NCBI GenBank assembly: GCA_024641855.1
Contig: JAHECG010000002.1
Location: 30,573-94,572 of the forward strand
Length of the DNA stretch: 64,000 bases
Direction of reading: 5' to 3'
From: Betaproteobacteria bacterium
GTDB lineage: Bacteria; Pseudomonadota; Gammaproteobacteria; Burkholderiales; Thiobacteraceae
Shown: one piece after another, positions 13,637 through 39,202 of the stretch
Position numbering within the stretch: the first letter of the stretch is position 1
Layout: each line of letters opens with the position of its first letter
The notes under the pieces: generated by a model
Told to the model about the DNA's origin: nothing
Database searches by the model: none
The model's input: the letters and a program-made list of their open reading frames with translations, nothing else
Translations under genes and position numbers: made by a program

Positions 13637-13701
13637 AGATTGCCCATAGGGCCTGAGGCCTTGCGCAGTGTTATAATTTTGCCTCTCAAAACTGGCGCTT
13701 G

Positions 13702-14529: not shown

Positions 14530-14546
14530 TAATTGGGGATACAGGG

Positions 14547-16973: not shown

Positions 16974-16980
16974 GCGGGTT

Positions 16981-18501: not shown

Positions 18502-18513
18502 CACACAGCAAAA

Positions 18514-19731: not shown

Positions 19732-19768
19732 ATTCCTTTTGCCATTTTTTTATTCGCATGGATGATTT

Positions 19769-20260: not shown

Positions 20261-22666
20261 TTAGGAAGTTGTGTAGTTCATAAACTTTTCCGGGCTCACC
20301 CGAATTGCCGCACCAGTCGGGCATGCGCGAACGCAGGATGCGCCACCCGGAATATCTTTACACATATCACACTTTACGGCTTTCTTACTGAGCGCGTCAT
20401 TGTGGTAAGCCTCTTCCCGTCCAGGTTCAGTCGTAAAGCCTGTCAGCAGCCAAGCGAGCAGGCTGGGCGGACGACGGTTCGGATTTATTTGCGCCATCTG
20501 GATTACACCATAAGGGCAATTACGTTGACAGTTGCCACAGCCAATACACGTATTCTCAATGTACACCTCGCCATTGGGATTGCGATGGATTGCGTCCGGC
20601 GGGCAATCCTTCATGCAATAGGGATTTTCACAATGGCGGCAAGAAGTGGGGACGTGAATATTTTCAAACGTTGGGCCCGCTTCACGGTTTAATCGCGATG
20701 TTCCATCATGCACATCTGCACATGCTTTTTCACAATTATCACAGCGCACGCAGAGGCTTTCGTCGATCAGCAAAACATCGGTACCCTCTCCCAACCCTTG
20801 ACTGACTAAGAAACTAATCATGCTCCCAGTGTTTGGCGACGTCTCACTTTGTACATTTTTGGATAAACGTTTCAACACTTGCGATTCAATATCACTACGT
20901 AGCTTGGGATTGCGATTAATCACCGCATTGAAAGCTGCCGACGTCAACAGCACTGTTTCGGAATTGACCGCAGCGCGCACTGTAGCGGAACGCTTGGCAT
21001 CGGATAGTAAAGCCATCTCACCGACATAGTGGCCCGCGGAAACATACGATCGCACCACTTCTTTACCACCGACCATATTCGAAATCGTCACGGATCCCCG
21101 ACGAATTAGGTGCAATCCGTCAGGATCGTCACCTTCTTTGAATAAGGGTTTGCCAGCAGGAAAATTTTGAATAGAAGCGCCTTGCACCATATCGGCCAAC
21201 TCCTCTTCCGAGATAGTCGGCGCAATATGTGTACGCACGGCACGGCGTAAAGCAACTTCATCCATTTTTTGACGTACGGATTCGACGCTGGCGATTAATT
21301 TAAGCATCGCGCGTCGCGGAGATTCAATCAGCACGCAATTTGCGCCAGCTTTGACGGTGCTACTCCGTCGACGACCAGAGAGCAAGCCCATCTCGCCAAA
21401 GAACTGCCCCTGCTTCAAAGGGATGCTTTTAATCTTGCCATCGGCGCCGATGACTTCTACCAACACTTCGCCTTCCAAAATAGAGAACAAAGAGTTCGTG
21501 TAATCATCTTTACGGAAAATGATCTCGCCACTCACAGGTGCATGAACTTCACTATCCAACATGAATTCACGAAGTTGTAGCGTTGCCATATTCGCAAACA
21601 ATGGGATATTGCTTTGCACCAAACCCAGCGCTTCCGAGACATTCCGAGCCCGGGTGTAATTTTTAAATTTAGCCTTTAGTAAGGGTTCATCGGCAGGCTC
21701 CACTGGATTGCCCAGGATGTACTCGACTACCTCGTAACCTTGATTCATCGCCTGCTTAATCAGCGGATAACCGGCTAAGGCACCGACGATGTAAAGACCA
21801 GGAACATTCGACTCATAGGTGGCAGAAACTTGCGGTACGGCATCCATATTGGCATTGGGGAACTCGATGCCAAAACTTTCTACCAACTTTCTCGGGGGAA
21901 TTGCACCCAAACGGGCAATGATGCGATTGCAGGCGATATTCTCTACGCCCTGCGGCGTTTGTGCGACGAAACAAATGGGCTTGCCATCGGTTTCTAGGGC
22001 TTCGACTTTAATCGCTGTAGTGCTGTATCGGCACTCCAATTTACCTTCACCTATTGCCTTGTTGATTAAGTCAATATTCCCTTGTTTAACCCGCGCAAAT
22101 TCCTGTGAGCGATTTATCAGAATAACGCGATTGTTTGCAGTCAAGGCGATTGCATTTTCAATCCCTGCATCCCCCGCACCAACCACAATGATAGTCTCTC
22201 CAGAATATTCATCTGGGTCATCGAGTTGATACTGGACTAACTCAATATCTTCACCGGGCACACCCAATTTACGGATATTTCCTTGCAAGCCGATACCGAG
22301 AACAACATTCTCTGCTGCATAAGTTTCACCGCTTGCTGTCTTAATCTGAAAGGCCCCTTTAGTGCCCGTAATCGATGTTACGGCCGCACGATACTGAACA
22401 TTGACCTTATATTTATCTAATTCATTGTTCCATTTATCTAGAATCGTTTCACGCTTACCCGCTTCAAACGACATAGGGCTGCGCAAAGGCAAGATGGTTG
22501 GTTCATCCATCACATGTTTGCCTTTTTGATAACGATATATCGTATGCGAAGCGTGATCTTCGGCTTCTAGCAAAACATGTGGGACGCTCAACTCAGCGGC
22601 ATGCGCGGCACAAGAGAGCCCACCAGGACCAGAACCAATGATGGCGATTTTTACACTGTTCGTCAC
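20261..22666 (-). CDS. Multidomain oxidoreductase: FAD/NAD(P) pyridine nucleotide oxidoreductase + two cyclic-nucleotide-binding domains + four [4Fe-4S] motifs
   Basis: GSGPGGLSCAAHA and VGAGDAGIENAIAL dinucleotide folds; two cNMP folds (GEMGLLSGRRRSSTVKA, GEMALLSDAKRSATVRA); CVRCDNCEKAC, CRHCENPYCMKDCP, CIGCGNCQRNCP, CDMCKDIPGGASCVRACP. Confidence 0.93.
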   Translation of the reverse strand: MTNSVKIAIIGSGPGGLSCAAHAAELSVPHVLLEAEDHASHTIYRYQKGKHVMDEPTILPLRSPMSFEAGKRETILDKWNNELDKYKVNVQYRAAVTSITGTKGAFQIKTASGETYAAENVVLGIGLQGNIRKLGVPGEDIELVQYQLDDPDEYSGETIIVVGAGDAGIENAIALTANNRVILINRSQEFARVKQGNIDLINKAIGEGKLECRYSTTAIKVEALETDGKPICFVAQTPQGVENIACNRIIARLGAIPPRKLVESFGIEFPNANMDAVPQVSATYESNVPGLYIVGALAGYPLIKQAMNQGYEVVEYILGNPVEPADEPLLKAKFKNYTRARNVSEALGLVQSNIPLFANMATLQLREFMLDSEVHAPVSGEIIFRKDDYTNSLFSILEGEVLVEVIGADGKIKSIPLKQGQFFGEMGLLSGRRRSSTVKAGANCVLIESPRRAMLKLIASVESVRQKMDEVALRRAVRTHIAPTISEEELADMVQGASIQNFPAGKPLFKEGDDPDGLHLIRRGSVTISNMVGGKEVVRSYVSAGHYVGEMALLSDAKRSATVRAAVNSETVLLTSAAFNAVINRNPKLRSDIESQVLKRLSKNVQSETSPNTGSMISFLVSQGLGEGTDVLLIDESLCVRCDNCEKACADVHDGTSRLNREAGPTFENIHVPTSCRHCENPYCMKDCPPDAIHRNPNGEVYIENTCIGCGNCQRNCPYGVIQMAQINPNRRPPSLLAWLLTGFTTEPGREEAYHNDALSKKAVKCDMCKDIPGGASCVRACPTGAAIRVSPEKFMNYTTS

Positions 22667-23985
22667 TTTACCGATCCTTTTGCGATACTGGATTTAAGTG
22701 CGCGCAAGGCTTGCTCAAAGCTCGCAGAGCGATATTTCTCATCGTTGGCAACCAGCGCAAGCAAACGTGTCAAATCAGCGCGTAGCGTGACCGTACGCAG
22801 CATGCCACTTCGGCCCATGAAATCAGCAACACTTTGCACCGCCATGACAGCCTGTTCAGCCCCTTGATAATCTCCATATTGACCATCAAGTCCTTCGTCG
22901 ATCAGTCCGATCATGATGTTGCGTAAATCATCGGCAGAGAATCGGTGTGCACTGATCTTGGGAATTAGTTTGGTAATGGAATCTTGCACAATGCGTGCCT
23001 TTTGCAAACCATCATTACCATCAGCGATCGCATGATGCATGGCTGAAACGGCAGCGGCCAGTTCCGCAGCCTCTTTGACATCGATGCGTTTCGCGATTTG
23101 GCGCAACATCAGGAAAGTCGCGTCGTTAATGCGCACAATACCCGGGCCCGCACCGACACGCGCGGCTGTATTACGCTTATCACTCATGTTGTGGTGGCAA
23201 GAGTGGCAATCGAATAATACCAACTCCGGAAATAATCCATCACGCCCACGAGGACCCAGCAACAATCCTAGTAACTCTTGAGAGTACACCGCTTGCCCTA
23301 TGGCCCAGGCACGTACGCCATCCCATGAGCCTTTTCGCTTGTGCCAATCCTCATCAATCCGGAAATGGGCAGGACCGATTTGCGTGAAGGTATCTAATTC
23401 GAAGCTCATACGTGGGTGGCCAGCCGCCATAATACGGTGCGTCACGAATTTCTTTTGCGTTCCTAAGTGACAGGACAAGCACAACTGCACACGAGCAACA
23501 TCATTCTCTGTCGGATAAAGTCCTTTTTCCAAATTACCCGCGTGCGTTGCTTTCAACTCTACGTGACTTTTTATCCATCGCTCACCTGCACCATGGCAAG
23601 CCTCACAGGAGACACCATCGCTGATGGTGAATTTTTCACCGTGCTGCGCCGGCGCCGGATTGTGCGCATGGCAATCCAGGCATAGCGCCGATTTATGGGC
23701 CGGTTCTTTTAAGCCAAGTTTCTTTGCAATATCTTTTGAGCGATCGTTGAGGAGTACCGCATAGGCACGCGAATGTTTGTCTGTGCGGATCCATGTGACA
23801 TACTCATTTTGCAATACATTTGAGTCTTTCCAGGTCTCGATCGAACCATGACAGAGACTGCTCGAGCAACTTGCCACGCCTAACGACTTGTCATGTGCGT
23901 ATTGGGGTAGCACGTTTTCGGCCATGGCAATGCTTGAAACAAGCAGGGACAACACAATGGCAACTAAAGTGGTGGGTTTCATCAT
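22663..23985 (-). CDS. Periplasmic multiheme cytochrome c (4 CXXCH plus one CX4CH)
   Basis: Signal peptide; CSSSLCH, CLDCH, CEACH, CLSCH, CHSCH; ATGA overlap with downstream gene. Confidence 0.9.
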   Translation of the reverse strand: MMKPTTLVAIVLSLLVSSIAMAENVLPQYAHDKSLGVASCSSSLCHGSIETWKDSNVLQNEYVTWIRTDKHSRAYAVLLNDRSKDIAKKLGLKEPAHKSALCLDCHAHNPAPAQHGEKFTISDGVSCEACHGAGERWIKSHVELKATHAGNLEKGLYPTENDVARVQLCLSCHLGTQKKFVTHRIMAAGHPRMSFELDTFTQIGPAHFRIDEDWHKRKGSWDGVRAWAIGQAVYSQELLGLLLGPRGRDGLFPELVLFDCHSCHHNMSDKRNTAARVGAGPGIVRINDATFLMLRQIAKRIDVKEAAELAAAVSAMHHAIADGNDGLQKARIVQDSITKLIPKISAHRFSADDLRNIMIGLIDEGLDGQYGDYQGAEQAVMAVQSVADFMGRSGMLRTVTLRADLTRLLALVANDEKYRSASFEQALRALKSSIAKGSVK

Positions 23986-26900
23986 GGTTTCACCGTCGCT
24001 GTAGGTGGCATTTTAACCGTCCAGGGCGTGCCATCTGGTTTGAGGTAAAGCTTTCGCTGTTCCTCCAGATTGAAGGGGCGCGAACCAACACGCCCGAAGA
24101 TCGCAACTTGGCCGCCTGTTTCATCAACTCCCCGATCACGCTCCAAACCGCGCGAAAGTGCCAACGCAGGACTTTGTGTTTTCTTTTGTGCGATTAAGTG
24201 TGGCTTTGGATCCGGTGTGAAGCCATAAAATTTTGGCTGTATTTCCGGTGAAGTCAATTGCAGCACTTTCAACCCATTGCGACCGTCAGCTACATAACCG
24301 ATTAAAGAGGCATTGGTGGTTGCCACGACTACGTCACGCGCATCGTTTAAGCTACCGTCGGCTGTAAATTTCTGATACAGCTTAGGCTTCTCTGGGTTTT
24401 CAATATCCACAATCACCAAACCTTCTGGCCCAGCCGCCACATAAGCAAAGCTACGCGCAATGTACACGCGATGTGCGTCTTTCAGTGGAATGAAAGCCCC
24501 CTCAACCACTTTCGCACGCTCCGGTAAAGTGATATCGACAATCCGCAGTCCGGTATCATCAAGCACGGTCAAATAGCGGAATTGCAGTGCGCTAGAACGA
24601 ATACCTTTCATCGGAATGACTTTGGTCACAACCGGTTTCAATGGGTCATTCAGGTTAAGGATGACCAGACCTGCATCGGCCGCAATATACGCATAGTAGC
24701 CACCCATGGTGATATGCCGCGCACCATTCAAGATGCCATTTTCATTCCATGTCAGGGCGCGTGTCAGGTAATTGTTCTGTGGATTACCGTCTTGCAAGGT
24801 ATTCACATCCGACAGGATCAGACCTTCCTTGGCATCTGTAATAAAGACGTAGTTATAAATCGGATGCATGGGTTGCTCTAGATTGTCATGCCGAATTATT
24901 TCTGTATTTTTAAGCGGTGCGACGGGTTGATTGGTCGGCAATGCCATACAAGTCGCGTTCGTCGAAGCAATGTGCGTATCGTGCCCCAATGGCGAAAATG
25001 GGGCTGTCAGTATGCGCTGCGAAATGCCTTTATTGGCAATGGATGCGACATCGTAGACCCGCATCCCTCCAGCGCCTTCTGCAACATACAGATATTCGCC
25101 CCGTAGCTGAATGCAGGAAGCATTACCTTCCGTAGTATGGTTGTGCGCTTCCGGCAATTCCAGACCGCGCTTTTGGTGCTCAGCATAAAAATCCGGGTAC
25201 GCGTAGCGATGCAGGTAACTGCCAATGACGGCTTGTGGCTCTTCCCACTCGGTGACTTGAATACCTTCTACGTGCTTCTCTTCGCCCAAGAAAGCATCGT
25301 AGCCGACAAATCCTACAAAACCGGTTCCGTGCAACAACAACTGCGCCATGATGGCGTTGTTGTCGTTCTTTGGCGATAAATGACAATCATCACAAGTCTT
25401 GGTTTCAGTTTTCCGCTCGGTATGCGCATAGTGTGGCGCGAACGCTTGGCTCGAATAGCCGCTGGCGGCCGTCGGCGGCTGTTGCACATAAATATGTTCT
25501 CGATTGATATTGGTAGATGACAATACCAACGCAGAAGACGAACGCACCGGCGCAATTTTTCCACCCTTCGATGGACCGTGTATCCCTAACTGGAACATTT
25601 GATCACGTGCGACTTGGGGGTTATAAGTTGCAAAATTTCGCGTCTCGCCACCTTCGTAATGCTGACGCTCGGTTTTATCATTAGCCTCGATCGGCAGATG
25701 ACACCCTGCACAACTGGTAGTCCAAGACGTATGGCAAGTCTGGCATAACATCCGACTATCTTTATGCGCACGTTTATTGGCCGGCACTGACGCGTCCCAG
25801 CGTTGCTGATAATCATCAAAGCTGCCTTCGGCTACGAGTTTAGCGTGCGCGGCTTTTTCATTGTATTTAGCATGTTTCGGATTAACCGAATCTTTGACCA
25901 GCGACATCTCCCATTCCTTATCGGGATAGAGCGAGGAACGTTGGAACAATTTACCCTCGCGCCATTCAAAGCGCTTGCGACCGTCCGGGGTGCGCAACAG
26001 ACTCATATCCATACCGCCCGGCTTTGCCGCAGGACCCGTGGTAAATAGGGTCGGATAATTATCCACAGTACCATGGCAGTCTTCGCAGGTGATTTCGATA
26101 GCATCTGCCACTTGTGTATAGATAAATCCGTTGCCGTGGGCATCTTGTGAAAAATGGCAATCGACGCAATGCATTCCCAGATCGACATGAATGGACTGAA
26201 GATGTACGGCCTTCTTAAATTTTTCAGGATCCGTATCAGATACCTTGCCGCCATCCTTGTCCAAAAGCGTACCTTTACGATCACGTTTGTATATGGCGCG
26301 GAAATTCCAGCCGTGCCCGTGGTAATCGGCGAACTGGGTATCTTGGAGTTTCGGATTTAGGTCAAACACATTTTTTAGAAACTCCGGATCGCTCCAATTT
26401 CCGCGTACAGCAGCCCCCTCAGGATTACGCTTATAAATCTCGTGGCGCTCTTTATCTGTTGGATAACGTTGTTTCTTCGGCCACATAAAAGGCGCATCCG
26501 ATTCGTAATCCCACATGGTGTAGCCGTAGAACGTGTTCACAAATACATTCGGTTGATGCATGTGACAAATCATGCATTGTGAAGATGGAATAGCCCGCGT
26601 GAACTCGTGTTTTAAGGGATGGCCTGACTTATCTTTGGGGATCGTCGGGTCTGCCGTAATCGTTTTTCCTTCATGACCAAATTTTGCATAGGGGCCTGAA
26701 TGAAATTCTTGACGGTCATTGGCATACACGACATGGCATCCAGCGCATCCGGATGAACGATAGTCGCCGGGTTGCTCATTGGTACCCAGAAACCACATAA
26801 ACGGGTCGTTTAAGCGCGTCTTCGTAATATTGAGTACCGGAATCGCGATGCGCGAACCTGTCCCCGGGCCGCGATTGGACTGCTTGATATCCGGCCTACC

Positions 26901-27740
26901 GGGCTCATCCAATAATTGTAAACGCCCGGTACTATTCGGAATGGCAATTTCCGGAAATTGACTACTAATAACGCGACCACCGCGTTCAAACACACGGAAA
27001 ATATCAGCCGGCGGAACAGTCTCCCAAGCGGGAAGCGGATAATACTGCGCAACGATCCCCTTTTCGATCAGTCTTTGTTTCTCAGACTCCGACAAATTCG
27101 GTGGTAAAGGACTTTTAATCGAAGCTGCTTGCCCATCTTCGGTATAAGCCTCACCCAACACGCCACGCTTAAACGGAAGAATTCCATTGTTATAGGCGCC
27201 GCCATTCCACAACATAGCGCCGGTCGACATCAGGCTACGTTCTGCCGCTTGAATGACGGTGAGGTGGCAGGCACCACAGGCATGCCGCACCACACGGTAA
27301 TCAGACGGATTCATGAAACGAATGAATGCTGGGCTCTCTTGGTTAATTAACGTGAATGAACCTTGTGGATTCGCAGAATCTGGCGTGCGCCATTTCTCAG
27401 GAAAGCGCGGCAAAATATGCGCTTCATTCATCGCATCCGCATAAGCACTATGATTTTTACCTTTATAAATTGCATTTTTTGGTTTTTCAATTTTGACATT
27501 ACCACCATGGCAATCGACACAACCCAGAATGACTGCTGGATTACTATGCATGGTGTGACGGTCGGTAGCCGTGTGGCAAGTAACACATCCCGCAGATTTC
27601 GCATCTGCTTCGCGCTGCGTCTGTTTTTCTGGCGCAGGTGGCGCTGTTACCTTAATTTTTTCAGCTACATGGCCCGAAGTGCTGGCCTGAATGCCTACCG
27701 AAACCAGGATTAACAGTAGTGTTACAGTGAGTTTCTTCAT
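23982..27740 (-). CDS. Decaheme cytochrome c with C-terminal LVIVD-type beta-propeller
   Basis: Signal peptide MKKLTVTLLLILVSVGIQAS; ten CXXCH; C-terminal repeats GMRVYDV, GLILSDV, GLVILNL, GLRIVDI, GLVIVDI, GLKVLQL. Confidence 0.93.
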   Translation of the reverse strand: MKKLTVTLLLILVSVGIQASTSGHVAEKIKVTAPPAPEKQTQREADAKSAGCVTCHTATDRHTMHSNPAVILGCVDCHGGNVKIEKPKNAIYKGKNHSAYADAMNEAHILPRFPEKWRTPDSANPQGSFTLINQESPAFIRFMNPSDYRVVRHACGACHLTVIQAAERSLMSTGAMLWNGGAYNNGILPFKRGVLGEAYTEDGQAASIKSPLPPNLSESEKQRLIEKGIVAQYYPLPAWETVPPADIFRVFERGGRVISSQFPEIAIPNSTGRLQLLDEPGRPDIKQSNRGPGTGSRIAIPVLNITKTRLNDPFMWFLGTNEQPGDYRSSGCAGCHVVYANDRQEFHSGPYAKFGHEGKTITADPTIPKDKSGHPLKHEFTRAIPSSQCMICHMHQPNVFVNTFYGYTMWDYESDAPFMWPKKQRYPTDKERHEIYKRNPEGAAVRGNWSDPEFLKNVFDLNPKLQDTQFADYHGHGWNFRAIYKRDRKGTLLDKDGGKVSDTDPEKFKKAVHLQSIHVDLGMHCVDCHFSQDAHGNGFIYTQVADAIEITCEDCHGTVDNYPTLFTTGPAAKPGGMDMSLLRTPDGRKRFEWREGKLFQRSSLYPDKEWEMSLVKDSVNPKHAKYNEKAAHAKLVAEGSFDDYQQRWDASVPANKRAHKDSRMLCQTCHTSWTTSCAGCHLPIEANDKTERQHYEGGETRNFATYNPQVARDQMFQLGIHGPSKGGKIAPVRSSSALVLSSTNINREHIYVQQPPTAASGYSSQAFAPHYAHTERKTETKTCDDCHLSPKNDNNAIMAQLLLHGTGFVGFVGYDAFLGEEKHVEGIQVTEWEEPQAVIGSYLHRYAYPDFYAEHQKRGLELPEAHNHTTEGNASCIQLRGEYLYVAEGAGGMRVYDVASIANKGISQRILTAPFSPLGHDTHIASTNATCMALPTNQPVAPLKNTEIIRHDNLEQPMHPIYNYVFITDAKEGLILSDVNTLQDGNPQNNYLTRALTWNENGILNGARHITMGGYYAYIAADAGLVILNLNDPLKPVVTKVIPMKGIRSSALQFRYLTVLDDTGLRIVDITLPERAKVVEGAFIPLKDAHRVYIARSFAYVAAGPEGLVIVDIENPEKPKLYQKFTADGSLNDARDVVVATTNASLIGYVADGRNGLKVLQLTSPEIQPKFYGFTPDPKPHLIAQKKTQSPALALSRGLERDRGVDETGGQVAIFGRVGSRPFNLEEQRKLYLKPDGTPWTVKMPPTATVKP

Positions 27741-30100
27741 TAGAAAGTGAGCAGTAGATTAAAGAGTGCTGAATATTGGCGCGCATCAACTGCGTTACCA
27801 TAGATTTCCTTTAAGCCCTCCAGCGGCTCCAAGGTGGCGAACGACGCATTCAACACTACGTTTTGTGAGAAGTAAGGCCGATATTGAATCCCGACTGAAA
27901 GGTCGTATCCAAGCCTAGTGCTATGGAGTCGTTGGTTACGCAGCACCGCCAGCGAAGATAAATTATCGAATTCTAAATAATTCGCATTGGTAATCACGCG
28001 CAACCGCGGTGTAATATCGAAATCCGCACCAACGCCAAACAAATGGATGCCTGGATTGGTGAAGTTCGACTGACCATGTTCACGTGAGGTTCGTAGATTT
28101 GCCAGGATGCCATTACGCGTTGATAACGCAGTACCGCCACCACCAATCAACGGTACTGATTGACGAATAAAGTAGCTGGTATCAGCGCCTGCAAATTGTG
28201 GATTTTCTAAAACGGAGTCAAAGCCACCCGCTTTATTATCATAAGGATCCTTATCACCAGAAGCCCAAAGTGCACTGGCACGTACGCGATACCAATCGAA
28301 GTCTCGAGATAATTCCATCGCCCCAAAATAAGCGCTAATATCTTCTTTGACACCGGACAGTTGTCCTTTGCTTACGTTACCCGTTGCGTAATAGCCAGAT
28401 AAATTAAGATTCCAACGTCCAAAGTGGCCATCTCCATTCAAGCCGAGATAGGTAACATCATAATTATAGGGTCGCCCGGATCCGAAAATTGCAGGACGTT
28501 CCAAGAACCCATTATCGTTAAAATAAAGGGGGCGGCTGCCTTCGCGATTACGACTGTGCAGAACTGTACCTTGTGTGGTAAAGCCAAGCACTGGCGTATC
28601 TTGGCTATAAACGTTAAACAGGAACAAGTCTTCTTTACGCAAGCTTTGGCTAATATCATTCAAGCCACTATTGGTATCTTTTTCCAAACGACGAAACCAG
28701 CCAAGATTGTATTGCAACGTGTTATTAGCACGCGTACCAAACAAACGCACACCCAAAGGTTGGTCAAGAAATAGAAAGCCACGAAAATCGGCGGTGATGG
28801 GCTGAATGCCGACGCGCAAGCTATCAAAGTCGTAACGATCAGAAACGTTGCGCAAGTGCTTATCAACGAACAACTCTTGTACGGCTGCAAAGCTATCGGT
28901 ACGCGTAGGACCATTAGCAGGATTAACATTTACTGCGCGCACTTCTTGAGTATGCGTGTAGTTAACATTGAAAACCGGAACAAAACGGAATTCGTAATCC
29001 GGTGGTTTAAACGTTGTATTACCCTTGATCAACGCAAAGTTGAAAATTGCAGTTTCCGCCAACGTGTATTGCTTGCCGCGTCCAAAAGTGCCATTGGAGC
29101 CAGCATTCAGCGTGGATTGCGCGCCCACAGGCGTTGGCAACCGTCGCGCTTCAATTAAGGTGTCAGAAATCGCGCCAAAGTTAAAAAACCATTCATCGCC
29201 CAGCACATCCTGTAACACGGGTAGATCACCCTTAATCACATTTGGGTTATACGGGTCGAGGATATTGTAGGGCAGTAAATTCAGCGCCTTCACCAGACGC
29301 CAGCGATCCCGTATCGGAATTTCCTCGCGCACCAGATAAGGCGCTGGTGGTTCAACTTGTGACGGATCAATGATAGGAAGTCGAGGCTCAATAGGCGCAC
29401 CTTGTGGACGGCTGCGTACGACGGCCGTTTCTTTTTCCTTTTCTTGCGCAGCGACAACTTCTGCGGCTTGCGCTTTCGTTAAGGATTCTGTCCGACGCGG
29501 ATCCAATTGGCCTGCCGCATAATCGATGCGCCGATCTTTCGGAAATGGCTTAATAACTAACGTCGAACCCGTCCCGGTAGGTGCATTGAATATCCAAGCT
29601 TCACCACCACCAAAGCGTTTTACGCGATACCAATCGCCTTGTTTTAGATCTGCATCGAGTTCGACGCTTTGCTCTATGCGTGCAATCACTGGCAAGGATT
29701 GATCAGGGTGCTCATAGACAGCAACACTCGGCGCCAGCACTTGAACCAAGTAATGTTGGGTTGTTATCTCCGCCGCTGACTCAGCCACGGATGTAGACGC
29801 GCTTGCCATGTGGATCAAATCCGACCGAACCCAACCTTCCCGATCTAATACCGCAGGTTTAGTTCGCCGAATTTTGCTCCATCCATTCTCCTGTTGCAGT
29901 ACCTGCACTATTTCGCCCCGGTACATCACAGCCAAGATGCGTTCATCTTCTCCCGGACCTGCACGCATGCGCGATGCGGTTGCAACTTCCGCTTGCGTCT
30001 CGACGGCTGCAGCCAATACAGGTTGCACCCAAATCATTGGCGCTGTCAGCGCAAATAGGGACGCTACCATTAAACGAAGTTGTCTATTTTTATTTGCCAT
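27740..30100 (-). CDS. Outer-membrane beta-barrel (porin-like) protein with two N-terminal SH3-like modules
   Basis: Signal peptide; SRMRAGPGEDERILAVMYRGEIVQVLQQENGWSKIRRTK..EGWV; long amphipathic-strand C-terminal region ending in YSALFNLLLTF (terminal Phe); start chosen at MANKNRQ, track start 30139. Confidence 0.8.
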   Translation of the reverse strand: MANKNRQLRLMVASLFALTAPMIWVQPVLAAAVETQAEVATASRMRAGPGEDERILAVMYRGEIVQVLQQENGWSKIRRTKPAVLDREGWVRSDLIHMASASTSVAESAAEITTQHYLVQVLAPSVAVYEHPDQSLPVIARIEQSVELDADLKQGDWYRVKRFGGGEAWIFNAPTGTGSTLVIKPFPKDRRIDYAAGQLDPRRTESLTKAQAAEVVAAQEKEKETAVVRSRPQGAPIEPRLPIIDPSQVEPPAPYLVREEIPIRDRWRLVKALNLLPYNILDPYNPNVIKGDLPVLQDVLGDEWFFNFGAISDTLIEARRLPTPVGAQSTLNAGSNGTFGRGKQYTLAETAIFNFALIKGNTTFKPPDYEFRFVPVFNVNYTHTQEVRAVNVNPANGPTRTDSFAAVQELFVDKHLRNVSDRYDFDSLRVGIQPITADFRGFLFLDQPLGVRLFGTRANNTLQYNLGWFRRLEKDTNSGLNDISQSLRKEDLFLFNVYSQDTPVLGFTTQGTVLHSRNREGSRPLYFNDNGFLERPAIFGSGRPYNYDVTYLGLNGDGHFGRWNLNLSGYYATGNVSKGQLSGVKEDISAYFGAMELSRDFDWYRVRASALWASGDKDPYDNKAGGFDSVLENPQFAGADTSYFIRQSVPLIGGGGTALSTRNGILANLRTSREHGQSNFTNPGIHLFGVGADFDITPRLRVITNANYLEFDNLSSLAVLRNQRLHSTRLGYDLSVGIQYRPYFSQNVVLNASFATLEPLEGLKEIYGNAVDARQYSALFNLLLTF

Positions 30101-31973
30101 CGCACACATTGGTTTCATTTGAGTCAAGATAAGGCGCAACCGGACAGTTCACGTAGCGCAACTGCCCACCCGGTAAGCCCATAATCGTGTCGGCACGAAT
30201 AGCGACTTTTGCATTATGAATATCGCTCCCAGCACCTAACGCTACACCCGCATTATAAAGCCCGATAAAAGAGATGAAGTTATCCTGGTCGATACCGTCA
30301 CCGGAAATGCCAATACCACCGACCAACGTATCACCACGATAAATTGGGAAACCACCGGAGAATATCTGGATACCATTGGCCGATACTGCACTGCAGGTGG
30401 CCGCAGGCGTTGCAGTCAAAATATTGTTCACAACTTTAGTTCCTACCAAATCCAACTGTAAACCCACATTAAACGGGCTCCACTTGGTACTGTAATCCAG
30501 AGACAGCGGCCCCGCCGCGTTCGCATTTATACCATCCGGGAAAAACGGACGCGCGATCAAACCAATCGTTCTGTTACTGTAGGCAATGCCATCGGCAAAT
30601 GCCGTCGTGCTGATCTGCGCTCTTGCGTTCGTTGTGTATTGGCTAATAGCGCCATTATTAATCCCCGCCGCACCCACCACAAAACCCGGTTGCGCATTTA
30701 ACGTTGCATAGGCATCTGTGCGCGAAAAAAACATGGAGGTGCGCGCTTTTTGCACCGCTACATCGGTGCCAAATACCGGTGCATCCGGCGTGCGGATCAA
30801 CCCAACAATCGCACCATTGGTATCCACCACGGCGATATTCACTTGCGCTTGAGAACCTAGTGGCAAACGAATTTGACCCCGCGTGCGGTTAGTAACGCGG
30901 ATGTTCTCGGCTAGAATTTGAATCACTTCCGCCTGCGTCATTAAGCCATCCGTACCAGCGATAGCTGGGTAGCGGTTAACTCCCGCACCATTCACCAGCA
31001 CAAATGCATTTAACCCAGTGAAATTGCCGCTACTATCAGCTAAATAACCTGATGCAGCCGTATTAAATGCGGTGCCATCTATCACGCCACCAGCCGCGGT
31101 GAAGTAGCCTGGAACATCGACCAAAGCGCCACCGGACGGCATCGCCGGTGCTACTGCAGGATTCGTAGAAATTGCCTCGGAATCGGTAAACCGCAGGGTG
31201 CGTCCATCAACGGTAATGCGATCAGCACGACGATTCGTCGGGGCGCTAAACCCACTGCTACCTGCCACAGCAATGAGTTCATCGACGCTCATATCGGTGT
31301 CAAGTATGTTCAAGTCTAGACTATATAAACCATCGGATATTACGCCGATGCCGCCAACCACCGTCCCATTTTTGTAAAGCGGCAATCCACCGGGGTCAGC
31401 CGAAAGTCCCAGGGGTGCACCGTGTGGGCCACGGCTACCGCCTGCTGCTTTATTCCAGGCGACATCAGAACAGGACAGTGAAGAAAACTGCACACCGAAC
31501 AAAGGACCGCCTGGTTGATTTGTTTCATGCGGATTGAAATTCTGCTGCACAATTTGGCTCGCCGTACGACTGGTAAACGCATTGCCTTCAGAAGAAAGAA
31601 ATGCACCGGTAATCGCTTTGCTGATGGCCGTGTATTCTGCACCGACCGCTACGCCTTGCAACCCACCGGTTACTGCACGACCAGCGGTAATCGTCGCGTT
31701 GGATGCACCACCGATTTGATAGACTCCCAAAACATTACCAACCCGATCCACGACAGCAATCGTGGTATTTGCGGCAAGATGCGCTTGGGCCTCTTTGACC
31801 GCTTGACTGATGATGCGATTGACTTCAGCCGCAGACAAGAAACTGGGCGTTGTCAAGGCGCAACTACCTGTACAGCCTGCGTCGCTGTTGATTGTCGCTC
31901 CGCCACCACCACCGGCACTACCGCCACACCCGGTGAGTATGCTCAACAGCAACAAGACAACGATCAATCTCAT
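30090..31973 (-). CDS. Lipoprotein with tandem GlcG/HbpS-like (haem-degrading/heme-binding type) domains
   Basis: MRLIVVLLLLSILTGCGGSAGGGG lipobox; repeated AEVNRIISQAVKEAQAHLAANTTIAVVDRVGNVLGVYQ and AEVIQILAENIRVTNRTRGQIRLPLGSQAQVNIAVVDTNGAIVGLIRTP; start moved from track 32063. Confidence 0.82.
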   Translation of the reverse strand: MRLIVVLLLLSILTGCGGSAGGGGGATINSDAGCTGSCALTTPSFLSAAEVNRIISQAVKEAQAHLAANTTIAVVDRVGNVLGVYQIGGASNATITAGRAVTGGLQGVAVGAEYTAISKAITGAFLSSEGNAFTSRTASQIVQQNFNPHETNQPGGPLFGVQFSSLSCSDVAWNKAAGGSRGPHGAPLGLSADPGGLPLYKNGTVVGGIGVISDGLYSLDLNILDTDMSVDELIAVAGSSGFSAPTNRRADRITVDGRTLRFTDSEAISTNPAVAPAMPSGGALVDVPGYFTAAGGVIDGTAFNTAASGYLADSSGNFTGLNAFVLVNGAGVNRYPAIAGTDGLMTQAEVIQILAENIRVTNRTRGQIRLPLGSQAQVNIAVVDTNGAIVGLIRTPDAPVFGTDVAVQKARTSMFFSRTDAYATLNAQPGFVVGAAGINNGAISQYTTNARAQISTTAFADGIAYSNRTIGLIARPFFPDGINANAAGPLSLDYSTKWSPFNVGLQLDLVGTKVVNNILTATPAATCSAVSANGIQIFSGGFPIYRGDTLVGGIGISGDGIDQDNFISFIGLYNAGVALGAGSDIHNAKVAIRADTIMGLPGGQLRYVNCPVAPYLDSNETNVCDGK

Positions 31974-33754
31974 TTCTTTCCTTTCGGCTTCGATAATAAT
32001 TGCGCTTGCATCTCGGCGTGCCAATAATTTCGACCGGCATGGAATTGATGGCAAGTAGCGCAATCCGACGTCACTTTTCCGGATACTGGCTTAGCACCGA
32101 CATGGCACTCTCGACACTTCTCGATATTCGGCATCGCAATATCTTTGGATTCTTTCGAATTTTTGACAGCATGACAGCTCGCACATTCCTCGGTCGTATG
32201 TTTGGCGTGCGAAAATATCGCTTGCGGCATCCACACTTGCGCGATGCGTACCGGCGCGACTTCCCAACCGTTTTCATCGCCAGTCCGTTTGACGATATGG
32301 CAGGTGCTGCACACCTTGCGTTTCTCAAACATGTCGTACAACACTTGCTTCGCCTTTTGATTGGCGATTAGCAGCGCCTCTTGGCGTTGCGGATAGCTCA
32401 ACACTGCACCAGGTCGCATCCGCCGCAGATCAGGAGGAGGGCTAACTCCGGGCGGAACATCACCAAGCACTAAACGCGCATAGAATTCACGCAACATCGT
32501 AGCCATTTCCGTTTCCGAGCCATGCGGCGCCTGACGGTTTGTCACTTGCGGCTCAAACGCCAGTGAGTGGCACTTCTGACAGTGTTGCTCCATCACAATC
32601 GGCTTGATCAACCGACCGCCTTCGTCAGGTTCGTGGCAATCGGCGCACTTCATTACCGTACGACGTCCTTGTGCATCGCGCACACCAGCGGCATCCCGCT
32701 TACCATCAGGATCGCGCACACCATCTGGATCCAGATGCAATTTATGGTTGAACTTGAGGTTGGAATGTTCAACCAGCAGTTCCGCGTTCTTCTTATCTTG
32801 ACGCACACGTCGAATCAACTTGGGTTTATCTGCATCCAGCAACGATAGACGGAAAGCCGGATGTTCAGTCCGGAAATCTGTCACCTTGCCAGACTGCGCG
32901 TCGGCGGCGACTTTCTCCACATCCGTATGACAATCCGCGCATTGCTCTTGCGCACGCGGCGCCAATTGCTTTCCTTTATGATCGCGATGACATTCAGCGC
33001 AACGCATGTCGCGAAATGCAGCGCCTTGAGGCCCCGTCAATTCCTTAGCAGGAACATGTTCTTTGATTCGCTTATGACAAGTGACACACTCCTGATCGCG
33101 CGTATGTTTGAAAGGAATCTGGTGGCATGCTCTGCAATCCGAAGCAAAAGGTTGATGGCCTTGGGACAGCGGCCCGGGATTCCAGGATTGCGTGAATTTG
33201 GCGCTAACCGCCTGCGTCATTTGCCCCACCGAACCCGCGTTCATCTTAGCCGCAGCTGGCGAACTCAATCGACCCAACAAATCCGCTGAGATTGGAACCA
33301 GCAAAGTCAGTATTAATAAGCCAAGAAAAGCTAAATAGGACAAACGACGTTTTGAAATACGATTTTCAGTCGGTGCAACTCGAGTCAGAATATCCCCTGC
33401 GTCTCCACCTTCCAAGGGGTTCACCAACGTGATGGACAACGCCAGCGGTATTCCCTCCGACGCAGCCTCGACTTGCAGTAAATAGGGGCCGACTTCAATA
33501 CGGTCGCCGATCGCTAATCGGCTATTTTGAGCGGCTTGTCCATTGACCTGAATACGCCCAGGATCGGCCTCAATGACAGTACCGTCATCGGTAACGGTAA
33601 TGCGCGCATGAGATAAGGCTACACGCGGATCGGCCAAATGAATTTGACATTGCGTGCCGCGGCCAATAATGAACACTGAACCCGGAATACGTCTTTGATC
33701 GCGCTGGGTCTGACCCCGTTGATTGACCGTAACATTGGTAACTTGGATTTCCAT
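31970..33754 (-). CDS. FHA domain - TM helix - decaheme cytochrome c
   Basis: N-terminal FHA (SVFIIGRGTQCQIHLADPRVALSHARI...IQVNGQAAQNSRLAIGDRIEVGPYLLQV), TM YLAFLGLLILTLLVPISADLLG, then ten CXXCH. Confidence 0.92.
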   Translation of the reverse strand: MEIQVTNVTVNQRGQTQRDQRRIPGSVFIIGRGTQCQIHLADPRVALSHARITVTDDGTVIEADPGRIQVNGQAAQNSRLAIGDRIEVGPYLLQVEAASEGIPLALSITLVNPLEGGDAGDILTRVAPTENRISKRRLSYLAFLGLLILTLLVPISADLLGRLSSPAAAKMNAGSVGQMTQAVSAKFTQSWNPGPLSQGHQPFASDCRACHQIPFKHTRDQECVTCHKRIKEHVPAKELTGPQGAAFRDMRCAECHRDHKGKQLAPRAQEQCADCHTDVEKVAADAQSGKVTDFRTEHPAFRLSLLDADKPKLIRRVRQDKKNAELLVEHSNLKFNHKLHLDPDGVRDPDGKRDAAGVRDAQGRRTVMKCADCHEPDEGGRLIKPIVMEQHCQKCHSLAFEPQVTNRQAPHGSETEMATMLREFYARLVLGDVPPGVSPPPDLRRMRPGAVLSYPQRQEALLIANQKAKQVLYDMFEKRKVCSTCHIVKRTGDENGWEVAPVRIAQVWMPQAIFSHAKHTTEECASCHAVKNSKESKDIAMPNIEKCRECHVGAKPVSGKVTSDCATCHQFHAGRNYWHAEMQAQLLSKPKGKK

Positions 33755-33772: not shown

Positions 33773-34657
33773 TTACCAGTAATAAAAGACGGAAAGAATA
33801 TGCGCGATTAAGGTTGCGAGCAGCGCAAAAGATAAAGGCACATGCAGATACAACCAAATTCGCATGAGCGCCCGATAGCGCAAATCGCGACGAACGCGAT
33901 CTGTTAATGCACTCTTACGTGTCATTTCCGACAACAATTGCCCGTTAATGCGTGCTTGCTCCGGTGTTAATTTAGTGCCCACACGCATCAACGCATCACA
34001 AGCGGCACGCGTAGGACAAAACTCATTCATCGCGGTAATTTGTCGACGCATGCTACTTCCCACCGCCAAGGCACGAGGATGGGCTCGGGTCGCTTTCAAA
34101 ACAATGGTGTTGGCCTCATCCGGTAGATCTAATGCCAACTTTCGACATTTACGATCCAAGTCGGCAATCTTTAACAGCAAACTCTCCAACGTCTCTCCTG
34201 CAAGATTGCCCGTCATGAGTTCGGGATATCGCAAATAGGCATAGACGCCAAAAAAACCACTCAGAATAACAATGACCATTAGGACATAGGCCAGGGTATG
34301 GATATTCCATCCAAATTCGAAAGCACTATGCAATGTTGCAATAATGATTAAGCTTGTACCCAGGTAAACGTGCGCCGAAGTCCATCCTTGTACGCTGCCC
34401 ATATTGGATCGATAGCGGCGCTTACGCACACCCAGCAACATCAACCATACAATCAAAACCGCAGCAATCGTACCTAAGGTATAGCCGAGCCAAGTGCCGC
34501 CATAAGGTTTAATGTACACAACCGGGGGTTCATGCCATATATAAACGACCAGAGACAACACGCAGAACCATAACGCGAGTTTTAAGTAGCGCGCGCGCTT
34601 GAAGGCAAGAATAGACTGATTTTGGTGCATGGCTGATGTTAGGCGAGAGCCCATCAC
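33773..34657 (-). CDS. Integral membrane diheme b-type cytochrome-like protein
   Basis: About five TM segments; HVYLGTSLIIIATLH and HVPLSFALLATLIAH (two H-x13-H pairs in TM helices). Confidence 0.75.
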   Translation of the reverse strand: MMGSRLTSAMHQNQSILAFKRARYLKLALWFCVLSLVVYIWHEPPVVYIKPYGGTWLGYTLGTIAAVLIVWLMLLGVRKRRYRSNMGSVQGWTSAHVYLGTSLIIIATLHSAFEFGWNIHTLAYVLMVIVILSGFFGVYAYLRYPELMTGNLAGETLESLLLKIADLDRKCRKLALDLPDEANTIVLKATRAHPRALAVGSSMRRQITAMNEFCPTRAACDALMRVGTKLTPEQARINGQLLSEMTRKSALTDRVRRDLRYRALMRIWLYLHVPLSFALLATLIAHILSVFYYW

Positions 34658-35051: not shown

Positions 35052-35549
35052 ATGCAGAAGCATAAACACAAAAGAATAATACGAACGCCTGGATTTACCT
35101 TGATCGAAATCCTAGTTGTCGTAATCATCATCGGCGTCATGGCAAGCAGTATTGCGATTAAGGCATTTCCGGATGATCGCAGCCGCCTACGACAAGAAGC
35201 TGAACGACTCGGATTATTGCTAGCACAAGCGCGCGACGAGGCATTTCTCAGCGGCCACAGCATTACATGGTCAATACAAAATCAGACCTATAGCTTCTGG
35301 AAACTGAATAACGAACGCCAATGGGTGCCGCTGACCAATAATCTAGCGCTAAGATCGCGCACCTTACCAACAACAATCTCATTAATTGATTTAACCATAA
35401 ACGCAACGAAAGTTCCTTTGAGCCAAAGTGTAATATTCTCCCCATCCGGACTAAATATCCCATTTTCAGCCACTCTGGCTACGCAGGAGTATCGGGTACT
35501 CTTGTCAGGCGATAGTGCCGGTCGCATACAAATCAAAGATGAAAATTAA
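35052..35549 (+). CDS. gspH: Minor pseudopilin GspH
   Basis: TPGFTLIEILVVVIIIGVMASSIAI prepilin motif, position before gspI. Confidence 0.88.
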   Translation: MQKHKHKRIIRTPGFTLIEILVVVIIIGVMASSIAIKAFPDDRSRLRQEAERLGLLLAQARDEAFLSGHSITWSIQNQTYSFWKLNNERQWVPLTNNLALRSRTLPTTISLIDLTINATKVPLSQSVIFSPSGLNIPFSATLATQEYRVLLSGDSAGRIQIKDEN

Positions 35550-35922
35550 AATACGCACAACTGGTTTTACGCTAATCGAAGTTTTAGTGGCACTCGCCAT
35601 TCTAGGCATCGCTTTATCCGCAGTTTTACGCGCCAGCGTCGTCACCACAGATCAAGCCCAAGCAATAAAACTGAAACTGCTGGCCCAGTGGAGCGCAGAA
35701 AATTTACTAGCAGAACAAATAGCGCGTAAACATTGGCCAGATCCGGGGATACAAACAGGCAATAGCGAACAAGCCGGTATCACGCTGCAGTGGGAACAAA
35801 CCACGACCACTACGCCAAATCCAGATTTTCGACGCATCGAAATTAAAATTTATGCGCAACCAGACCACACCTATGCTTTAACCCAATTAGTAGGGTTTGC
35901 AACAAATCCGTCAGCGTTATGA
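35539..35922 (+). CDS. gspI: Minor pseudopilin GspI
   Basis: TTGFTLIEVLVALAILGIALSAVLRA; start MKIKIRTTG inside the track ORF. Confidence 0.92.
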   Translation: MKIKIRTTGFTLIEVLVALAILGIALSAVLRASVVTTDQAQAIKLKLLAQWSAENLLAEQIARKHWPDPGIQTGNSEQAGITLQWEQTTTTTPNPDFRRIEIKIYAQPDHTYALTQLVGFATNPSAL

Positions 35923-36539
35923 ACCTACACAGCAAACAAAAGGTATCAGGGTTCACGCTGCTCGAAATGCTCGTTGCGCTTGCCATCTTTGCAATAATAT
36001 CCGTGATGACCTATCGCGGTCTGACGACTGTTCTGCAAACCCGTTCGCATCTTGCGCAAGAAAACCGCAAGTGGCAGGACGTGGCGCTACTCTTTACCCG
36101 CATTGAACAAGATTTGTCGATGCTGGCCAAGCGTTCCGTGCGTGATACCGACAACCGCTCTACTGCGCCATTCCTAGCCATGCCCATTGCACAGGGAGCA
36201 CAAGACGCAATCCTCATGTTTACCCGCATGGGATTCCCGGAACAAGCGAACACCTTAGCTGGACCATTGCGCTGCGGTTATCGCTTACGCCGCGATACCG
36301 TCGAACAACTTTTGTGGGCAGCCCCAGATGCAGCACCGCGCGCGACACCCATCGTCAATCATCTCCTAGACAATGTTGCCGCCATGGAATTCCAATATTT
36401 AGATCAGATAGGAACCTGGCACACGCATTGGCCACAACCGGGAAATACCCGTATTTTTCCCGCTGCCGTACGCATAGTCATCGAATTAAAATCCAAAGAA
36501 CGCATTACACGGATTTTCGCCCTACCGGCATTACAATGA
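35919..36539 (+). CDS. gspJ: Minor pseudopilin GspJ
   Basis: SGFTLLEMLVALAIFAIISVMTYRGL. Confidence 0.93.
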   Translation: MNLHSKQKVSGFTLLEMLVALAIFAIISVMTYRGLTTVLQTRSHLAQENRKWQDVALLFTRIEQDLSMLAKRSVRDTDNRSTAPFLAMPIAQGAQDAILMFTRMGFPEQANTLAGPLRCGYRLRRDTVEQLLWAAPDAAPRATPIVNHLLDNVAAMEFQYLDQIGTWHTHWPQPGNTRIFPAAVRIVIELKSKERITRIFALPALQ

Positions 36540-37465
36540 CCCGAGGCAAACAACAAGGCGCAGCCCTAATCTTGGCCATCCTCGTCGTAGCGTTAGCATC
36601 GACCATCGCTATCTTCATGGCTAGCCAGCAGTCCTTGTGGACACAACAAATGCTTAATCTAAAGGGGCGTGCGCAAGCCGAGGCATTGGCGCATGCCGCA
36701 ATCGATTGGTCACGCGGGGTATTGGCAGAAGATGCGCGCAACAGCAAAGCCGACCATTTTGGAGAATCCTGGGCGCGTGGCTTAATTTCGTTACCCGTCG
36801 AATCCACTAATATCAGCGGCACCCTTACCGATCAGCAAGCTTTGTTTAACTTAAATAACTTGGTGCGTGATGGCCATGACAGCGAAAATGATATCGCGTT
36901 GTTCAAGCGCTTACTGGCCCACTTGCAACTACCGACAGAGCTTGTGAATCCATTGTTGGATTGGATTGATGAAGATAGTATGGTACATATTCCCGGTGGC
37001 GCAGAAGATGTCGAATATTTGCAGAGTCCTCAACCATATCGATGCGCAAATCAAGCTTTATTGAGTGTCGATGAGCTTTACCGCGTGCGTGGTTTCAATA
37101 AATCGAATATAGACCGACTTAAACCCTTCGTCACAGCGCTACCCGAACGCACGACGATTAATATCAATACCGCACCGCGTGAGATTTTGAGCGCCTTATT
37201 ACCCGATTACGCAGAAACTGATATCAGCACCCTACTCGATAATCGAAAGACTGCTTTTTTTAAAAGCAAACAAGATTTCCGCGCACGCCTGCCGATAGCC
37301 ACATCGGGTTTGCGCGATGAATCTTTTGATGTTGCCAGTAACTATTTTTTAGTCCAGATCATCGTACGTGCCCAACACGCCGACAGCGCTTACAAGGCGC
37401 TTCTGGCCAGGACGCTTACGGGGAACTGGCCAGTGATCGTTTGGCAATCAAAATTAGTCGAATAA
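36536..37465 (+). CDS. gspK: Minor pseudopilin GspK
   Basis: MTRGKQQGAALILAILVVALASTIAIFMASQQ; ATGA overlap with gspJ stop; TININTAPREILSALLP; track start 36314 is upstream in gspJ. Confidence 0.94.
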   Translation: MTRGKQQGAALILAILVVALASTIAIFMASQQSLWTQQMLNLKGRAQAEALAHAAIDWSRGVLAEDARNSKADHFGESWARGLISLPVESTNISGTLTDQQALFNLNNLVRDGHDSENDIALFKRLLAHLQLPTELVNPLLDWIDEDSMVHIPGGAEDVEYLQSPQPYRCANQALLSVDELYRVRGFNKSNIDRLKPFVTALPERTTININTAPREILSALLPDYAETDISTLLDNRKTAFFKSKQDFRARLPIATSGLRDESFDVASNYFLVQIIVRAQHADSAYKALLARTLTGNWPVIVWQSKLVE

Positions 37466-37490
37466 ACATAACGCGTTTTTAGGATTAGGC

Positions 37491-38711
37491 ATGTCGATCT
37501 TGCAAATTTATGTTCCCGAGTCAGGTATTGCGGAAAACTGCGCCTGGGTCTTGCGCGATGCTGGCACCGTTAAGACCGGTAGCAGCGCCTGTTCAGCTGT
37601 TCCGCAGGCCGATCAAATCCTACTCATCGTTGCCGCAAGCCGCGTATTGCTCACTCAAATCCATCTGCCCGCAGTTAGACAAGGTAAATTGCGTGAACTT
37701 TTGGCCTTTGCGGTAGAAGACAAATTACTCACCGAGCCGGACAAAATTCATGTCGTTGCTTCCTCACGCATACAGAGTGGTGAGACGCCGGTTGCCATTA
37801 TCGATAGAGCCTGGTTTCGACAACAATTAACCTATTTGCAACAACAGGGCATCCACCCCACCCAAGCGTTGCCCGAAACGCTACTACCTCGCTTAGCAAG
37901 TACTGCCTGGAGCCTAGTCTGGAATGGTCAAGGTGGTTTTGTGCGCATCGGCCCTAGCGCCGGAATTGTTGTCGATGGCGGAGACCTGCATACCCCGCCA
38001 ATCGCTTTAACGCTGGCACTGGAGGAGGCGCGCCTCTTAAAAACAGCGCCATCGCGCCTCTTGGTCTACCCCATCAATGGCGCCAGTACGCCTGAGTGGT
38101 CAAACAGTTTGAACCTCGACATCGAACAATGTGGCACGTGGGCATGGCAAAATGCCGAAACCCATGACGCTTCCACGTTAAATTTATTACAGGGTGAGTT
38201 CGCCCCTCCAAAGAAAAATAAAACCTGGCTGCCCCAATTGCGCCCAGTATTCGTTCTCATCGGTTTAATTGTTACCGTACAACTGGTTGCACTATTTGCA
38301 GATTGGCTGCTTCTGCGCCAAGAGCATCAACGATTGCAAAACGAAATGGTTGCTACGTTTAAACAAGCATTTCCTGAAGCTACTGCCATTGTCGATCCAG
38401 CATTACAAATGCGCCGCAATCTCTCCGATATACAACGTGCGCACGGTACTTTAGCCAGTACCGACTTCTTACCGCTTCTGGCCGCTGCCGCACCCGTCAT
38501 CCATCAAGCAAAACTTCTAGGCATGCACTATGAGCAAGACCAACTACAAATTGAAATCTTGATCCGCGATACCATCCAAATGGAGACTTTACGCGAACAG
38601 CTCAGCTCATTACCCTACCCTGCAATCATTAACACATCAGAGACAACACCGACCGGAATCAAAGCCCAGCTAAAGCTCGGCTCGAATTTCTTGTCCCACG
38701 AGAAAAAATAA
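37491..38711 (+). CDS. gspL: Type II secretion GspL
   Basis: GspL cytoplasmic actin-like part (LPAVRQGKLRELLAFAVEDKLLTEPDKIHVV), single TM; locus position. Confidence 0.9.
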   Translation: MSILQIYVPESGIAENCAWVLRDAGTVKTGSSACSAVPQADQILLIVAASRVLLTQIHLPAVRQGKLRELLAFAVEDKLLTEPDKIHVVASSRIQSGETPVAIIDRAWFRQQLTYLQQQGIHPTQALPETLLPRLASTAWSLVWNGQGGFVRIGPSAGIVVDGGDLHTPPIALTLALEEARLLKTAPSRLLVYPINGASTPEWSNSLNLDIEQCGTWAWQNAETHDASTLNLLQGEFAPPKKNKTWLPQLRPVFVLIGLIVTVQLVALFADWLLLRQEHQRLQNEMVATFKQAFPEATAIVDPALQMRRNLSDIQRAHGTLASTDFLPLLAAAAPVIHQAKLLGMHYEQDQLQIEILIRDTIQMETLREQLSSLPYPAIINTSETTPTGIKAQLKLGSNFLSHEKK

Positions 38712-39202
38712 TGAAAGACAAAATACTAGCCTTTTGGCAGCAACGAAATTACGCCGAGCGCCGCACCATCATGATCGCGGGCACGCTACTGATGACCGCA
38801 CTACTGTATGTCTTTATATGGCATCCGTTAACACAAGAACAACAGCGCTTACGAACCGTACTTCCGCAGATACGTGCTACAACGGCGCAAATGCATCATC
38901 AAGCTACAGCGATAAACCATCTACGCAATGTGCCGCAAAAAAACTTTAACGCTAATATCCGTGAGGCCCTTGAAAAGGCGGCAGTAATTAGCGCACTTGG
39001 CTCACCATTTCAACAGACGCTCCTAGACAATAGACACGCAAAAATCACAATCAATGCCATCGCCTTCGATCGCTGGATCGAATGGATCAATATTCTGCAA
39101 TCAGAACAAGGTGTCCGTATTGAATCGGCGGAAATCGTTACGCTTACCGAACCCGGCATAGTGAAAATTCAAGCCACGCTTTCTTCGCCCGCCAGCCGCT
39201 AA
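38711..39202 (+). CDS. gspM: Type II secretion GspM
   Basis: Short N-terminal cytoplasmic part + TM (RRTIMIAGTLLMTALLYVFIWHPLTQEQQRL); between gspL and gspN. Confidence 0.87.
   Translation: MKDKILAFWQQRNYAERRTIMIAGTLLMTALLYVFIWHPLTQEQQRLRTVLPQIRATTAQMHHQATAINHLRNVPQKNFNANIREALEKAAVISALGSPFQQTLLDNRHAKITINAIAFDRWIEWINILQSEQGVRIESAEIVTLTEPGIVKIQATLSSPASR

Follow-up and report, generated by a model that had tools for sequence, protein, structure and literature searches.

What does an FHA (forkhead-associated) domain do when it is fused to a ten-heme cytochrome? The question is raised by a gene at positions 31970–33754 of a 64,000-nucleotide stretch of Thiobacteraceae DNA (the window; Betaproteobacteria bacterium, assembly GCA_024641855.1, contig JAHECG010000002.1, positions 30,573 to 94,572), for which a preliminary description made from the sequence alone had proposed that a phosphothreonine-recognition domain is joined through a transmembrane (TM) helix to a decaheme cytochrome c, and that electron transfer through the envelope could thus be tied to cytoplasmic Ser/Thr phosphorylation. 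The reading favoured here, at a probability of roughly two in three, is that the protein is the decaheme wire of a conduit like the hypothetical porin–cytochrome conduits PCC3 and PCC4, and that its FHA domain has been kept as a module for phospho-independent protein docking or assembly at the cytoplasmic side of the membrane.

Architecture of the FHA-decaheme protein

The open reading frame (ORF) lies exactly where it was first placed, on the minus strand (33754→31970, ATG to TGA, 594 aa, no internal stop), with a Shine-Dalgarno-like AAGGA about 10 nt upstream of the ATG. The gene and its parts are:

31970..33754, minus strand: FHA-TM-decaheme cytochrome c, 594 aa (ORF, Pfam, AlphaFold)
33425..33754, minus strand: FHA domain, residues 1–110, predicted cytoplasmic; degenerate phosphothreonine pocket (Ala46 in place of Ser, NGT missing)
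33275..33340, minus strand: single TM helix, residues 139–160, after SKRR (R136 invariant)
32048..33136, minus strand: decaheme region, residues 207–569, ten CXXCH, predicted periplasmic

Residues 1–110 are a real FHA fold, as had been described: matches to PF16697 (E 8.6e-10, residues 14–97, 39.2 bits with a curated cut-off of 33.2) and PF00498 (E 4.9e-7, residues 29–89, 30.5 bits with a curated cut-off of 20.7) were both above threshold, the AlphaFold model of these residues is all-beta with a pLDDT of ~89–97 (about 95), and Foldseek searches of this part against the PDB returned GarA, FhaA/Rv0020c, Ki67, OdhI and DgcB, with TM-scores by target mostly of 0.6–0.77. A linker of low pLDDT (residues 111–135) separates this domain from the single TM helix (~139–160), after which ten CXXCH motifs follow at positions 207, 223, 252, 272, 370, 392, 482, 524, 547 and 565, also as first noted; at most one CXXCH occurred in any of 2000 shuffles of the protein, and no second hydrophobic segment was found within the heme part. 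Bis-His ligation of every heme is probable, since ten His residues outside the CXXCH motifs (200, 233, 259, 298, 337, 340, 411, 516, 519 and 572) are invariant in 53 homologues.

Heme attachment to CXXCH takes place in the periplasm, and basic residues are found on the N side of the TM helix in 73/74 homologues; on these two grounds the FHA domain is predicted to be cytoplasmic and the hemes periplasmic (N-in/C-out), in agreement with the topology first proposed. A periplasmic FHA domain was ruled out, indirectly, from the positive-inside pattern.

The seven-gene operon

The FHA-decaheme gene is the second of seven in an operon in which stop and start codons overlap (ATGA at 31970–31973, joining its stop to the lipoprotein gene; 27740; 23982–23985; 22663–22666), in the order diheme cytochrome b, FHA-decaheme, HbpS-like lipoprotein, SH3-barrel, LVIVD decaheme, C554-like tetraheme and FAD/2×cNMP/4Fe-4S protein (cNMP, cyclic nucleotide monophosphate). 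Its partners are:

33773..34657, minus strand: diheme b-type inner-membrane cytochrome, 294 aa (PF01292, E 6.7e-8)
30090..31973, minus strand: lipoprotein (lipobox LTGC) with HbpS-like repeats (PF03928, E 3.4e-18)
27740..30100, minus strand: predicted outer-membrane beta-barrel with N-terminal SH3 domains and C-terminal Phe (PF08239, AlphaFold, Foldseek)
23982..27740, minus strand: LVIVD decaheme, with signal peptide, 10 CXXCH and C-terminal LVIVD repeats, 1252 aa (PF08309, E 1.2e-14)
22663..23985, minus strand: periplasmic cytochrome with 4 CXXCH and an invariant CX4CH, C40-C45-H46 (PF13435, E 1.2e-9; invariant columns)
20261..22666, minus strand: cytoplasmic flavoprotein with a TrxR/YpdA-like FAD-NAD(P) module, two cNMP-binding domains and a C-terminal 4Fe-4S part (PF13738; PF00027, two stretches; Fer4 families)

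The cytochrome b carries two WX3HX13H motifs (His 96/110 and 272/286) and SGFFG, and in alignment with the PCC3 inner-membrane proteins of loci L025 and L027–L029 its Trp and His residues are invariant; it is read as a homologue of the PCC3 inner-membrane protein and as the putative quinone-side partner. The AlphaFold model of the barrel has ~18 long strands, and its best Foldseek match in the PDB is the outer-membrane exporter AlgE (E 4e-16). The LVIVD repeats would form a propeller, and the LVIVD decaheme is a candidate for the outer-surface terminal. With its extra CX4CH, the nominal tetraheme may bind five hemes. An outer-membrane barrel and a periplasmic multiheme cytochrome are thus predicted within one operon, which is the arrangement of a porin–cytochrome conduit, and the operon is a probable trans-envelope electron conduit; here too the preliminary description is borne out.

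The phosphothreonine pocket

The canonical GR...V-S-R-x-H-A...S-x-N-G-T appears in the FHA-decaheme as GR...V-A-L-S-H-A...D-P-G-R-I, so that Arg32 and His49 are retained, the phosphothreonine-contacting Ser is Ala46 and the Asn of NGT is replaced. Loss of the conserved Arg, Ser, His and Asn had been named at the outset as evidence that would count against phosphothreonine recognition; Ser and Asn are indeed lost, and Arg and His are kept. In a first survey of 42 homologues, the Ser position was occupied by Ala in 26 and by Ser in 3, the following Arg was Leu in 39, and DPR[VI]AL was conserved family-wide, with its Arg44, two residues before the lost Ser, present in 36/42. Among 61 FHA-bearing homologues, a set that takes in more distant Alpha- and Gammaproteobacteria, Arg32 is found in 55, His49 in 49 and Ser in 6, and none has the NGT motif at its position (two regex matches are a later VNG turn). 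The same genome encodes five other FHA proteins, and since all four with an extractable motif carry VSxxH and NG[TV] or ENGT, the comparison has internal controls. Because Ser is mostly and NGT wholly lost in the family while these controls are intact, the domain probably does not read phosphothreonine. Conservation of the fold without its reader residues is what would be expected if the domain served interactions that do not depend on phosphorylation, as it does in YscD-type proteins.

The link to Ser/Thr phosphorylation, in which the domain would bind phosphothreonine on a kinase substrate or partner, is accordingly not upheld and is considered very unlikely. The genuine fold, the retained GR-Arg and His, the five further FHA proteins and seven kinases of the genome, and a kinase gene fused to a universal stress protein domain at 9785–11224 can be cited for it; this gene, the nearest recognised kinase in the window, lies outside the operon, no protein kinase gene is present in the operon itself, BLAST of the flanks of homologous loci found none, the domain is lost across a whole clade, and the pocket counts given above stand against it directly. 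The conservation of Arg32, His49 and the DPR Arg leaves room for an altered-specificity anion pocket, in which Arg32 and Arg44 of DPRVAL would read another ligand, for instance an acidic tail or an atypical phosphorylated residue carried by the flavoprotein or the loop of cytochrome b. Arg44 could be structural, however, and the proposal draws on sequence rather than on the structure of a complex, so it is held to be unlikely.

Distribution, selection and loss of the FHA domain

In the majority of 75 named loci, most of the seven genes are again found together, and the operon family occurs in Alpha-, Beta- and Gammaproteobacteria, partly rearranged in Alphaproteobacteria (a class assigned from the label 'same phylum, other class'). 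The decaheme was found in 16/369 sampled genomes of the class (Gammaproteobacteria), and the LVIVD decaheme in 12/399 sampled genomes of the phylum (Pseudomonadota). Several homologous records of metagenome-assembled genomes carry organism names (e.g. 'Bordetella', 'Klebsiella', 'Chitinophaga') that clearly cannot be trusted, and these names were disregarded.

The FHA domain is held under purifying selection, with a dN/dS of ~0.10–0.19 in four pairs with unsaturated dS and similar values for the heme part; the linker (residues 111–135), unlike both, is mostly relaxed. That the FHA part arose by chance or through a frameshift was ruled out by this selection, together with the homologues and the structural model.

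On a phylogeny of the heme region alone, two changes account for the presence of the FHA domain, versus 24 in shuffles. One of these, in a Vicinamibacteria-labelled sequence (L064), was set aside as a second loss since its contig ends at the gene start and truncation is probable. The other joins 31 sequences from Limnobacter, Duganella, Janthinobacterium and relatives, whose sister group keeps the domain. Because FHA-bearing members sit on every other branch of this unrooted tree, the simpler reading of the one real change is loss in the Limnobacter/Duganella clade. Its members have a TM helix that begins near residue 25 and an otherwise intact operon; the cytoplasmic loop of cytochrome b, checked as a possible compensation, is 130–151 versus mostly 125–128 residues, a small difference that amounts to one event, and the idea was dropped. 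In the sister group (L054, L056 and L060) the pocket pattern is eroded further. This erosion and the single loss would fit an FHA domain that is a decaying vestige with no function of its own, but a dN/dS comparable to that of the heme part, next to a relaxed linker, and retention of the domain in three proteobacterial classes make this highly improbable.

Possible cytoplasmic input

The first phosphate-binding cassette (GE...R) of the cNMP domains of the flavoprotein is kept in 16/16 relatives, including those from PCC4, and the second in 10/12 members of the FHA-decaheme operon family. Because these cassettes are intact, cyclic nucleotides, whose binding is predicted by motif, would be a stronger candidate for a cytoplasmic control signal than phosphothreonine, and the flavoprotein (20261–22666) is a possible second-messenger input to respiration. 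It is conceivable, if unlikely, that the cytoplasmic end is a swappable control or docking port, with the conduit gated by the cNMP domains of the flavoprotein and the repurposed FHA domain serving as the coupling element; if true, the result would be a respiratory wire under allosteric second-messenger control.

Proposed electron route and role of the FHA domain

In the favoured reading, that of a conduit wire with a phospho-independent docking module, the FHA-decaheme would be the inner-membrane-anchored periplasmic wire of a porin–cytochrome conduit. The electron path would have the quinone pool (or the FAD/cNMP/4Fe-4S protein) at one end and, beyond the diheme cytochrome b and the ten hemes of the periplasmic part, the LVIVD decaheme at the other, held at or across the outer-membrane barrel. 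The FHA domain would serve for docking where the wire meets the cytoplasm, its likeliest task there being to hold the flavoprotein or the loop of cytochrome b. Occurrence in iron-oxidiser lineages suggests electron uptake from outside; since Duganella and Limnobacter are ordinary aerobes, no commitment is made to Fe(II) as the substrate.

Several observations weigh against this reading. The docking partners named for the FHA domain are candidates only, and the surface location of the LVIVD decaheme is a prediction only. The FHA-less clade retains both the flavoprotein and cytochrome b, so that docking would be dispensable or replaced there. Arg32, the structural His and the DPR Arg stay conserved at the frequencies given above, Ser is still present in six homologues, and the genome has its seven Ser/Thr kinases.

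Porin–cytochrome conduits are usually viewed as passive wires. The family described here, present in ~3–4% of sampled Gammaproteobacteria and Pseudomonadota genomes, places a conserved cytoplasmic module on the wire and cNMP domains on its cytoplasmic redox partner; whether extracellular electron transfer is regulated, or its assembly ordered, thereby becomes a testable question. It also serves as a caution that the label 'FHA' is not equal to 'phosphothreonine switch'.

Genomic surroundings

The conduit operon is inserted, on the opposite strand, in a type II secretion system (T2SS) operon, between gspC-D-E-F-G and gspH-I-J-K-L-M-N (13699–20203 and 35052–39954). The same arrangement is found in a congener (L031), and T2SS genes lie near the operon in L042; a general linkage was dropped, since it was seen only in the genus of the window and in L042. 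The Shewanella T2SS exports surface cytochromes, and by analogy the pairing here may be functional. Elsewhere in the window (9785–11964), the Ser/Thr kinase–universal stress protein fusion adjoins a calcineurin-like phosphoesterase.

Comparison with known systems

YscD/SctD proteins share with the FHA-decaheme a cytoplasmic N-terminal FHA fold on a single-pass inner-membrane protein, PF16697 being the best-scoring FHA-type Pfam model here, and are a precedent for an FHA fold that serves as an assembly module. They differ in what follows the TM helix, which is ten hemes here instead of ring-building domains, and the score against the SctD equivalog TIGR02500 was 15 bits versus a cut-off of 86. 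The score against TIGR03508 (DmsE family decaheme, MtrA/MtoA) was likewise low, 31.3 bits versus a cut-off of 192.2.

The Geobacter ExtHIJKLMNOPQS clusters (PMC5877670) resemble the operon in combining a porin-like protein, a cytochrome b and multiheme cytochromes, and the LVIVD decaheme is similar to ExtM, with a weak match (E 7e-23, a tenth of the curated cut-off score); they differ in having a Rieske protein and a rhodanese, and no FHA domain is noted.

The preliminary description knew of no characterised respiratory conduit with such an input module, which proved too strong: Table 1 of PMC10734462 lists an MMseqs cluster (403) of 'Forkhead-associated protein' with 10 CXXCH, found in 27/87 Gallionellaceae iron oxidisers and filed under 'Other' with no discussion. 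Because its name and heme number match, and because in a Gallionella homologue (L059) the flavoprotein, cytochrome b and FHA-cytochrome genes lie side by side, cluster 403 is almost certainly the FHA-decaheme family; it differs from the present account in being tabulated only, with neither operon, topology nor FHA-residue analysis. A literature search for FHA with multiheme cytochromes returned this paper alone, with no discussion of the fusion, and one for LVIVD with multiheme proteins returned nothing. The architecture is thus on record, and the pocket degeneracy, operon, distribution and relation to PCC4 appear to be new within the literature searched.

With PCC3, the operon shares a homologous diheme b inner-membrane protein, a porin with outer and periplasmic multiheme cytochromes, and a nearby FAD/4Fe-4S gene. 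PCC3 differs (PMC5566968; PMC10734462) in having a periplasmic cytochrome of 21–27 hemes, on which neither an FHA nor an anchored cytoplasmic domain was observed; its ~21–27-heme periplasmic cytochrome and its extracellular cytochrome with few residues per heme have no counterpart here, where 594 and 1252 aa each hold ten CXXCH. The same genome also has a PCC3-type cluster (L025), with a 24-heme periplasmic cytochrome and ORFs of 17, 8 and 9 hemes, and in an order-level relative a 1687-residue cytochrome with 62 CXXCH (L027:3176-8236) adjoins a PCC3-type 24-heme gene.

PCC4 is described as having an inner-membrane protein of ~5 TM helices, multiheme cytochromes of 4, 5 and 10 hemes and no extracellular one, and two WX3HX13H motifs with SGxxG are the signature of the inner-membrane proteins of both hypothetical conduits (He et al. 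2017, PMC5566968); the cytochrome b described here carries this signature. A search with the tetraheme recovered clusters that fit published PCC4 (L210 and L213; L212 and L215 in part), with a 5-heme cytochrome, a tetraheme, a cNMP/4Fe-4S gene, an inner-membrane protein and a decaheme. From the TM helix onward their decaheme is homologous to the FHA-decaheme (hhalign probability 99.7, E 1.5e-26). Ahead of it, the PCC4-type decahemes (L210:14220-16379, L212:6369-8495, L213:12821-15211 and L215:11890-14145) have a cytoplasmic N-terminus of ~90 residues with eight conserved Cys (CG..G..C..GP..G.C..C.P..C.RP..GGPC..GP.P.G.C..P.C.P.R), which has no Pfam match and might bind a metal or an Fe-S cluster at the end of the wire that faces the cytoplasm. 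The same N-terminal position therefore holds an FHA domain, a Cys-rich domain (PCC4) or nothing (Limnobacter/Duganella). The PCC4 loci yielded neither the HbpS-like lipoprotein nor the LVIVD decaheme, and PCC4 has a separate FNR-like NAD/2Fe-2S reductase where a fused TrxR-like FAD module is found here. The inner-membrane motifs, the anchored decaheme, the related tetraheme and the adjoining cytoplasmic cNMP/4Fe-4S redox gene are common to both. Because the heme counts and the third cytochrome differ (five hemes in PCC4; here 10, 10 and 4 CXXCH plus one CX4CH), the FHA-decaheme operon is taken as a sister variant of PCC3/PCC4 rather than a member of PCC4, and a clear sister relation can be drawn between it and these hypothetical conduits.

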